NCBI RefSeq assembly: GCF_000381985.1
Contig: NZ_KB907346.1
Location: 1-64,000, forward strand
Direction: 5' to 3'
Source: Novispirillum itersonii subsp. itersonii ATCC 12639
GTDB taxonomy: Bacteria; Pseudomonadota; Alphaproteobacteria; Rhodospirillales; Rhodospirillaceae
DNA length: 64,000 bases
Shown: positions 50,333 to 54,536 of the stretch, piece by piece
Layout of the letters: each line of letters starts with the position of its first letter
Numbering within the stretch: position 1 is the first letter of the stretch
Notes under the pieces: model-generated
Databases searched by the model: none
Told to the model about the DNA's origin: nothing
The model's input: the letters and a program-made list of their open reading frames with translations, nothing else
Program-made: the position numbers and the translations under genes

Positions 50333-50845
50333 TTATCCGAACAGGGCGTCGATCGACGACTGATCCATGGTGGTCGCTGTCTTAGCGGCCCCCCGTTCGC
50401 CACGCAGGCGGGCGTGGTCATAAAGACCTGCCATCTGCAGGGCACAATCCGTATTGGTCAGGATATTGGCGAACAGATCGGTGCCGTCATCCCAGTATCC
50501 GATCCCGCCGGTCAGGGTGCTGGCCGCCTCGGTGGCGGCATACAGCGTTTCCCGCACATTGGCGGCTTTCACCCGTTCAATGGCATCCGCTGGGGCAGGC
50601 TTACCCCGGAAGGCATAGCGCGCCAGCGTGATCAGGTCTCCGATCACCGCCGGATCGGGGAAGATCAGCTCCAGAACATGACGCATGTAGAACGTCTGCG
50701 CGTCCAGCCCCCCCGCACCGGGAACCTTGAAGGTGGATCCGATCCGCTGGCGGGCCCCCGGAGCAAACTCATCGGGATAAACCTCGGTCAGCGACACGTA
50801 AAAATCCGTGAACCGCCGGACGTAGGTTTCAAAACTCTCAGGCAA
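50333..50845 (-). CDS. Unrecognised protein with FliM-like (CheY-binding type) C-terminal motif
   Basis: The protein has 170 residues from a TTG start at 50845 with GGGGGA 5 nt upstream; an in-frame ATG at 50890 is an alternative with a weaker site. The body is mixed helical with no signal, membrane helix or metal motif, and I do not recognise it. The last nine residues, QSSIDALFG, match the C-terminus of the CheZ at 53.7 kb (QDDIDKLFG) and resemble the N-terminal SQxEIDALL motif by which FliM binds CheY. This suggests a chemotaxis or flagellar-motor role (inference). The neighbours are dsbA-smc and chvI. Confidence 0.75.
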   Translation of the reverse strand: MPESFETYVRRFTDFYVSLTEVYPDEFAPGARQRIGSTFKVPGAGGLDAQTFYMRHVLELIFPDPAVIGDLITLARYAFRGKPAPADAIERVKAANVRETLYAATEAASTLTGGIGYWDDGTDLFANILTNTDCALQMAGLYDHARLRGERGAAKTATTMDQSSIDALFG

Positions 50846-51118
50846 GGCTGTCCCCCAACAACGCGATACGCCCCATTGTGCCCGCCGCATCCACACCGGT
50901 AAACCGCTTTTGTCGCCTGTGGCGCACGCTTTGACCGGGGCTGTTCCCGCCGCGGGTGACAGGGGCTTGAGAAAACTGGCCGAAGCCAGACTGACTGCAC
51001 CCCACTTTTGCCACAAAGAAGGTTAGTCTAAGGTAAACTCTCTTCCTACAGGGCCTTTTATCCCTGCTGCCAGCACCGTGAACCGTTTTTCCCGTACCCT
51101 GTCTTCTGGAGCTTTCCG

Positions 51119-51826
51119 GTGAGTCATACCATTGCGTTGGTCGACGACGACCGCAACATCATCGCTTCGGTGTCCCTGCTGCTGGAAAGCGAAGGCTATT
51201 CCGTACGCTGTTACCATGACGGGTCAGAGGCCCTGCGCGGCCTGACGCAGGAACCGCCGGACATGGCGATCCTTGATATCAAGATGCCGCGAATGGATGG
51301 CATGGAGCTGCTGCAGCACCTGCGGAAAACCTCTGATTTGCCGGTGATCTTCCTGACCTCTAAAGATGATGAGGTCGATGAAGTGCTGGGGCTGCGGATG
51401 GGTGCGGACGACTACATCCGCAAGCCATTCTCGCAACGTCTGCTGCTGGAACGGATCCGGACCCTGCTGCGGCGGCTGGAAGCCCGCAAGGCCGACACCA
51501 CCCCGCCCTCGGCCCTGTCTGACACCGCACTGGTGCGCGGGGATCTGGTCCTCGACCCCGCCCGCCATCATGTGCAGTGGAAAGGCCGCACCGTTGACCT
51601 GACCGTCACCGAATTTCTGATCTTGCAGGGGCTGGCCCAGCGCCCCGGTCATGTCAAAAGCCGCGACCAGCTGATCGATATCGCATACGGGGAACACATT
51701 TATGTCGATGACCGCACCATCGACAGCCACATCAAGCGCCTGCGGAAGAAGCTGCGCGACACCGACTCCGAATTCAATGCCATCGAAACCCTCTACGGTC
51801 TGGGATACCGCTACAAGGACGCCTGA
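51119..51826 (+). CDS. chvI: Response regulator ChvI
   Basis: OmpR/PhoB-type regulator of 235 residues. The receiver domain (about 1-120) has acidic residues Asp9-Asp11, the phosphorylated Asp53 in [10 protein letters not shown] and the Lys in IRKPFS. A winged-helix DNA-binding domain follows (about 135-230, [25 protein letters not shown] and [17 protein letters not shown]). ChvI controls envelope, exopolysaccharide and acid responses in alphaproteobacteria. The start is GTG 51119 with TGGAG 7 nt upstream. chvG follows after 25 nt. Confidence 0.95.
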
Positions 51827-51851
51827 GAGCGACTGACCGGGGAACAGGGGA

Positions 51852-53618: not shown

Positions 53619-53634
53619 TCACCGTGCAGAAAAT

Positions 53635-53666
53635 GCAACAGGGGACGGTTTCCCATCCCCTGTTGC
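53635..53666. terminator. Hairpin between convergent chvG and cheZ
   Basis: GCAACAGGGGA (53635-53645) and TCCCCTGTTGC (53656-53666) form a perfect 11-bp stem with a 10-nt loop. There is no strong T run, but the position between convergent genes fits a bidirectional transcript end. Confidence 0.6.
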
Positions 53667-53687
53667 TGATCCGTCAGAACTGCTCTC

Positions 53688-54536
53688 TCAGCCAAACAGC
53701 TTGTCGATGTCGTCCTGCCCAAGTCCCGGTGCATCTTCTGCGGGGGGGGCAGCTGCCGGTTTCGGGGCAGGCTTCGGAGCAGGGGCCGGAGCCGGTTTTG
53801 CCGCAGCCGGAGGCTTCGGCGCAGCAGGTTTAGCAGGAGCAGGAGCCGAGGCAGCCGCAGGCGCCGCAGGTTTAGGAGCCGGAGCCGGAGCCGGAGCCGG
53901 AGCCGCAGGGGCTGGCATCGGGGCCGGACTGTCAAACAGGGCGTCAATCGCAGCCTGTCCACCGTCAGATCCACCACCGGTCCCCAGAATGGCATCAACG
54001 TCAGACTGGGACACACCCCGCCCGGCCAGCTGCGGACCATTCAGGTACTTCTGATACTCATCCTTGGAGTTCCGGCCCAGAGGCTGGGTTTCCGCCAGTG
54101 TTTCCGGGCCCCACATATTGATCAGAGAATTAACGCGCTGCTCAATGAACTGCAGAGATTTCACAACCTTGTTAATACGCTGGCCGGTAATGTCCTGAAA
54201 GGAACAGGCCTCGAAAATCGCGCCGGTCAGGCCCGGGACCCGGTCAATCACCGCCACCGCTTCCGGATGATCGGCAACCATTGACCGCACCTCGGACAGC
54301 ATCCCTTCCATTTCCTCAACCGAGGACATGATGGTGTCGGTCGCCTCTTCCGTTGCATGCACAATGGCATCCAACTCATCACTCATCTGCGTGAAATGAT
54401 CTTCTTCGCCCATAACCCCCGGACGACGGATCGAAGCGATTTCCGCACGCATACGCTGAATATGCTGGAACAGCCCGAACAGTTCCTGCTTCAGCAGATA
54501 GACTTCAGTCTGCGGTGTCTTGCCCATCTTTCCCAT
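53688..54536 (-). CDS. cheZ: CheZ-family protein phosphatase with repeated CheY-binding-like motifs
   Basis: The protein has 282 residues. A long helical hairpin (about 10-165) carries the catalytic motif SFQDITGQRINKVV; Asp115 and Gln119 correspond to the active Asp and Gln of E. coli CheZ that dephosphorylate CheY. The C-terminal part is a flexible Pro/Ala linker (about 204-270). Three short motifs of one type occur: SQSDVDAILG (176-185), QAAIDALFD (194-202) and GQDDIDKLFG at the very C-terminus (273-282). They resemble the CheY-binding peptides of FliM and of CheZ itself. It is not next to other che genes. Five GGAGCC repeats encode part of the linker. Confidence 0.88.
   Translation of the reverse strand: MGKMGKTPQTEVYLLKQELFGLFQHIQRMRAEIASIRRPGVMGEEDHFTQMSDELDAIVHATEEATDTIMSSVEEMEGMLSEVRSMVADHPEAVAVIDRVPGLTGAIFEACSFQDITGQRINKVVKSLQFIEQRVNSLINMWGPETLAETQPLGRNSKDEYQKYLNGPQLAGRGVSQSDVDAILGTGGGSDGGQAAIDALFDSPAPMPAPAAPAPAPAPAPKPAAPAAASAPAPAKPAAPKPPAAAKPAPAPAPKPAPKPAAAPPAEDAPGLGQDDIDKLFG
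53875..53904 (+). repeat. Five tandem copies of GGAGCC within cheZ
   Basis: A perfect hexanucleotide repeat, 30 bp, encoding Ala-Pro dipeptides in the CheZ linker on the minus strand. Unit length six keeps the frame, so copy-number change would alter only linker length. Confidence 0.95.

Follow-up and report, generated by a model that had tools for sequence, protein, structure and literature searches.

A predicted CheY-docking tail shared by CheZ and two unannotated proteins of Novispirillum itersonii

Does phosphorylated CheY (CheY-P) have partners beyond the two main clients of the textbook account of chemotaxis, FliM and CheZ? The question is raised by the first 64,000 nucleotides of contig NZ_KB907346.1 from Novispirillum itersonii subsp. 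itersonii ATCC 12639 (positions 1-64,000, called the window; coordinates are those of this stretch unless a contig is named). On its minus strand lie a CheZ gene and an orphan gene, orphan A, whose products end in similar peptides. The original prediction, made from the letters of the window, held that these peptides resemble the CheY-binding N-terminus of FliM, that orphan A may be a new CheY partner or a motor-associated protein, and that this CheZ may bind CheY multivalently. In our analysis the tails of both proteins are probably helical docking peptides for CheY-P, or for a close relative among receiver domains, as in FliM. Conservation and patterns of co-occurrence support the core of the earlier idea, which can be widened to a common unannotated family, protein B; an association of B with the motor was not borne out.

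All four copies of the motif common to orphan A and CheZ were found at the positions noted earlier. Orphan A ends in DQSSIDALFG, and CheZ carries SQSDVDAILG, QAAIDALFD and QDDIDKLFG (Table 1). Odds against chance were estimated for the strict motif Q-x-x-[IV]-D-x-[LIM]-[LF]. With the composition of eight window genes and four offsets allowed, about 0.14 C-terminal motifs are expected per 4000 proteins. When the window CheZ was shuffled, at least one copy arose in 240 of 200,000 sequences and two or more in none of the 200,000; shuffled orphan A had the motif within its last 12 residues in 3 of 200,000.

The window CheZ retains the active-site DxxxQ (D115-ITG-Q119, DITGQ) and the neighbouring AxxFQ (ACSFQ), both described as CheZ motifs in PMC7750401. 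The alignment of copy 1 with the C-terminal tail of the E. coli protein in structure 1KMI (E 0.00039 for the whole match) marks it, by sequence, as the usual CheY-binding tail, and the two later copies as additions to it. In a CheZ model with a pLDDT (predicted local distance difference test) of 49.5, three short helices fall at the motif copies (residues 177-183, 192-201 and 274-281) and offer weak support for docking. A search for the paralogue covered 59 genomes of the family and gave a CheZ match at E 1e-10 in 34; the 23 closest loci (53-100% identity, the window's own included) were compared. At least two copies are present in 22 of the 23, and three in the window's own locus, an N. itersonii locus, L140 and L143 (L and G numbers denote loci and genomes). 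Across the 22 tandem loci the distance from first to last copy runs from 7 to 91 residues, and the final copy always lies one residue before the stop. That at least two copies are kept while their spacing varies argues for two docking sites preserved on either side of a stretch that is free to vary. The remaining locus (L137, the CheZ of G018) has a single copy in frame, which is likely a frameshift or an assembly error; in L147-L153, seven CheZ loci at greater distance, the motif occurs once. The multivalency suggested earlier is thus backed by conservation, while binding itself is a prediction. Of the 30 CheZ loci that scored best in the order, the motif fits the tails of 29, many of which read SQAEIDALLASFD or similar; the tail of L106 reads QAEINDLL.

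Orphan A probably starts at a TTG codon at 50845, five bases past GGGGGA, so that the gene is shorter than the listed open reading frame (ORF). It matched no Pfam or NCBIfam family (Pfam scan to E 10), PF04344 included, and a PDB sequence search gave nothing below E 0.08. A structural search with its model gave no Foldseek match at E 0.001 or better, the best VIA Z score (4.0) being to a designed protein. The model, built from four sequences (mean pLDDT 70), is helical; residues 143-169 fall below 50, and within this low-confidence stretch a short helix (161-168) lies over the motif. The protein is rare. Four of 199 genomes of the order gave a match, one of them by chance, leaving 3 of 199; in a class sample of 385 genomes the matches were the source genome of the window and one chance match, and a scan of named genomes returned three loci, adding Azospirillum sp. 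TSO22-1. No relatives were found among the viral contigs or plasmids searched. Two candidate relatives were set aside as chance: L009 (G126, E 8e-4), which matches residues 49-160 only within a 912-amino-acid open frame and does not reach the tail, and L013 (G257), a match of 51 residues with an internal stop. The copy in N. itersonii DSM 11590 is 94% identical to that of the window. Alignment of the homologues, on which the original prediction could have foundered, leaves it standing, with the tail conserved in all four sequences (51-94% identity) and the preceding linker diverged.

The source genome was searched for the motif with two codon-restricted DNA pattern scans, which gave 29 and 53 places (the 53 include the 29); the resulting list of carriers is not exhaustive. 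All 53 places were examined in context, and seven lie at most five residues from the stop in ORFs that are 100 amino acids or longer. These seven carriers are four CheZ paralogues, orphan A, protein B and an unassigned ORF, L050. Apart from the first two copies of the window CheZ, the other matches to the wider pattern fall elsewhere, in frames without a gene assignment. Each of the four CheZ genes thus has the motif no more than five residues from its end. One of them (contig C12, L001 431-1818) directly follows a CheY-like ORF, and its C-terminus, QDDIDALLASFDK, is the most E. coli-like tail among the four. FliM of the same genome (G000:C12 ~45721-46930, L054) has its motif, NQDEIDSLLG, some 89 residues into the chain, counted from the likely start; ahead of this CheY-binding motif, two similar stretches, REWEAMAGGG and AAEWEAMLGGG, lie in Gly-rich sequence.

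Protein B has no NCBIfam family, and its only Pfam match is a sub-threshold one to HrpF (E 0.29). When 39 members were compared with Pfam, none matched a CheC, CheX, FliY or SAM family; ten unrelated families appeared, each in one member of 39 at E up to 0.1 (best 0.0041). B is present in 137 of 199 genomes of the order (three of the matches, in G017, G181 and G191, are fragments) and in 66 of 357 genomes of the class. At 77 of 81 B loci the protein ends with the core Q-x-x-[IV]-D, a total made up of 30/30 from the order, 11/11 further loci (two already counted were left out, and L166, with an internal stop in frame, was included) and 36/40 in a sample chosen for divergence. The strict motif, with its two hydrophobic residues, fits 9 of the 30 order loci and 35 of the 40 divergent ones. 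Twelve of the 40 end exactly in DIDALFD, and five have tandem copies (L178, L181, L182, L183 and L203), one of these sharing with the window CheZ a Pro/Ala linker and the letters QDDIDKLFG. Exceptions to the core are L194, with the variant QDEINAMF in a genome where CheZ is present, and L195, L198 and L200, which lack the motif. The genomes of these last three (G360, G267 and G229) have no CheZ match; completeness is just 63% for G229, and G267 has the most divergent B. We rejected homology between A and B, since a profile comparison shows no likeness outside the tail: only 14 columns align, these being the tail (probability 18%). B gave no relatives among the viral contigs searched; among plasmids it matched 11 Azospirillum records, where the sole annotation under a match is "hypothetical protein". 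A ProC neighbourhood was rejected as conserved context for B, as the ProC motif GSGPAY occurs within 1.5 kb in just 2 of 30 order loci. A literature search, with most subscription papers beyond reach, found no paper with B or the tail sequences and none on tandem CheZ tails.

Of the 199 order genomes, 169 gave a FliM match and 152 a CheZ match. B and CheZ occur together in 133, B only in 4, CheZ only in 19 and neither in 43. Among the 169 genomes with FliM the corresponding counts are 126, 1, 17 and 25, so that B is present in one of the 26 that lack CheZ; in 357 genomes of the class they are 60, 6, 76 and 215. The association of B with FliM in the order is looser (both 127, B only 10, FliM only 42, neither 20). 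B therefore tracks CheZ more closely than FliM, which gives no support to calling it motor-associated. Among the 40 divergent loci, 3 of the 6 from genomes without CheZ lack the tail and none of the 34 others does, counting the variant of L194 as present.

FliM offers the precedent for a docking function. The FliM N-terminal segment with LSQXEIDALL binds CheY-P and is disordered until bound (PMC6700473). The EIDALL motif of FliM and FliY binds CheY-P, the FliM N-terminus being the first, recruiting site (PMC9126983), and FliM and CheZ bind CheY on the same face (PMC3774744). Judged by their letters, the tails of CheZ and A, and most tails in the divergent B sample, belong to this one module. 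Each tail, on a flexible linker, would fold to a helix on the alpha4-beta5-alpha5 face of CheY. Tandem tails would allow one CheZ subunit to hold or recapture several CheY molecules, and could concentrate CheY-P locally and compete with FliM. Orphan A and protein B would use their tails to bring CheY-P to their own domains, much as in CheZ; dependence on phosphorylation is presumed here too.

Several observations weigh against this reading. Neither A nor B lies in a chemotaxis operon in the source genome, A standing beside a ChvI/ChvG-like pair and B adjoining a ProC-like ORF, and the neighbours of A are not the same between genomes, Insolitispirillum having a dCache chemoreceptor beside it and Azospirillum an ABC_sub_bind protein. 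Of the 30 order B loci, 21 belong to one genus and end in SQDEIDAALAL or alike, with Ala in place of the FliM Leu; this failure of the strict motif in one genus slightly lowers our confidence in docking. Of seven CheZ-less genomes whose B tails were examined, four keep the tail (G129, G225, G283 and G310; in G225 an internal stop interrupts the frame), which shows it to be independent of CheZ. The same facts would suit an arrangement in which the tail docks on another single-domain receiver or protein, with CheZ and FliM keeping CheY while A and B serve a parallel pathway, for instance in general stress or polarity; Alphaproteobacteria do have single-domain regulators with other jobs, MrrA among them (PMC5964349). 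We nevertheless think such an arrangement unlikely, as B tracks CheZ even among genomes with FliM and within families (stratified by family, z 5.1, p 3e-7) and the DIDALFD ending of 12 of the 40 divergent B tails is near that of CheZ tails. Note that this stratification is by family only and ignores the tree, and that some of the genomes without CheZ are incomplete (G229, and G129 at 79%), which also counts against docking on CheY.

The repeated copies could instead be idle, with only copy 1 of CheZ functional and the rest, in CheZ as well as at the ends of A and B, decayed or neutral repeats. The linker is indeed low-complexity Pro/Ala and free to drift, but the first and last copies persist in all but one of the 23 loci whatever the length between them, and the tails of A and B are retained where their linkers have diverged; we regard this account as very improbable. 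Coincidence might be invoked for a motif so short, with five fixed classes, and yet the chance expectation and the shuffles given above, together with a tail kept in every A sequence and a core kept in 77 of 81 B loci, lead us to give it next to no credence.

A further reading would add to docking rather than replace it. B, and perhaps A, might be an auxiliary CheY-P phosphatase, of CheZ-like design on another fold. Phosphatases of response regulators need acid-amide pairs; CheX has ExxN and CheZ has DxxxQ (PMC3510030). In B, D37-x-x-N40 is present in 39 of 39 diverse members; it is the sole acid-amide pair conserved in at least 90% at the two spacings tested, and D37 and N40 are among only five invariant residues. 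A keeps [DE]132-x-x-x-Q136 and D122-x-x-x-N126 in 4/4. On the other side, D37-x-x-N40 was chosen after the alignment had been seen and departs from the exact CheX spelling (D for E), and in A three such pairs pass in four sequences (D47-x-x-T50 is the third), which makes A weak evidence. B also accompanies CheZ and does not replace it, a pattern that a redundant phosphatase need not show.

Also against the phosphatase reading, part of B weakly resembles a SAM domain, which would point to an adaptor. About 67 residues of its middle part match 2eap (Lymphocyte cytosolic protein 2), which we take to be a SAM domain, at E 0.00041 with 16 alignment rows and 0.0057 with 39 rows. A designed helical bundle matches B at E 0.0026 and 2e-5, respectively; because the bundle outscores 2eap with the wider alignment, neither PDB match is firm, and the bundle was rejected as a relative of B, its match being put down to composition. 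That B, with a domain unlike CheZ or CheC/CheX in sequence, acts in Alphaproteobacteria as an overlooked phosphatase of CheY-P or an enzyme gated by it, with A a second, rarer invention of the same design, is a tentative suggestion from sequence that we doubt. Were it true, CheY-P would be handled by a network of proteins that compete via one interchangeable tail, beyond FliM and CheZ.

The docking module itself is already known; unless the enzyme reading holds, what is new is its use on A, B and tandem CheZ. The window CheZ resembles E. coli CheZ (PF04344, 1KMI) in having LNGPQ followed by SQ-x-x-[IV]-D-x-[IL]-L, the DxxxQ pair, and a body with a flexible tail; it differs in that this paralogue has two or three putative docking copies instead of one and that its genome has four CheZ genes. 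The N-terminal LSQxEIDALL of FliM has near-identical letters in most CheZ tails and many B tails, whereas the motif is C-terminal in A, B and CheZ, and A and B match no Pfam FliM family. With CheC, CheX and FliY, B would share an acid-amide pair (DxxN against ExxN), and FliY also has an EIDALL-type peptide (PMC9126983), but A and B have no Pfam match to those families. Archaeal CheF is likewise a CheY-P partner that is neither switch protein nor phosphatase; in contrast to the docking proposed here, it binds near the phosphorylation site and not via an EIDALL peptide (PMC9126983).

If the tails dock, CheY-P would have further readers, through a family present in 133 of the 152 CheZ-bearing genomes of the order and through tandem CheZ. 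The C-terminal tail would then provide a sequence handle for locating further CheY partners, and multicopy CheZ a clean test of the effect of avidity on phosphatase action.

Table 1. Positions of orphan A, the window CheZ with its motif copies, and protein B.
Feature	Position	Strand	Remarks
Orphan A	50333-50845	-	170 amino acids; predicted helical domain, variable linker, C-terminal FliM-type motif
Putative docking motif of orphan A, QSSIDALF	50339-50362	-	C-terminal; DQ-x-x-IDALF in 4/4 sequences
CheZ paralogue with putative tandem docking tail	53688-54536	-	PF04344, 44.5 bits (above the curated cut-off, 30.7)
CheZ copy 3, QDDIDKLF	53694-53717	-	Ends one residue short of the chain end
CheZ Pro/Ala-rich linker between copies 2 and 3	53718-53933	-	Low pLDDT in the CheZ model
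CheZ copy 2, QAAIDALF	53934-53957	-	Three copies in 4/23 loci of this paralogue, own included
CheZ copy 1, QSDVDAIL	53985-54008	-	Follows LNGPQ; located where E. coli CheZ has its CheY-binding tail
Protein B	C15:3907-4419 (source genome)		170 amino acids; unannotated; C-terminus MDQSQIDEIFRL

By Pfam domains, the genes between orphan A and CheZ (51119-53618, plus strand) encode a response regulator and a sensor kinase of ChvI/ChvG-like type; the best NCBIfam match of the kinase is HistKinChvGCaul, below its cut-off. Two other minus-strand ORFs of the window, at 54792-55298 (168 amino acids) and 57242-58672 (476 amino acids), are without a significant Pfam family. In Azospirillum sp. TSO22-1 (L012 7990-9909) the ABC_sub_bind protein is encoded shortly upstream of orphan A; it has no recognised output domain and, by eye, a long hydrophobic N-terminal half.

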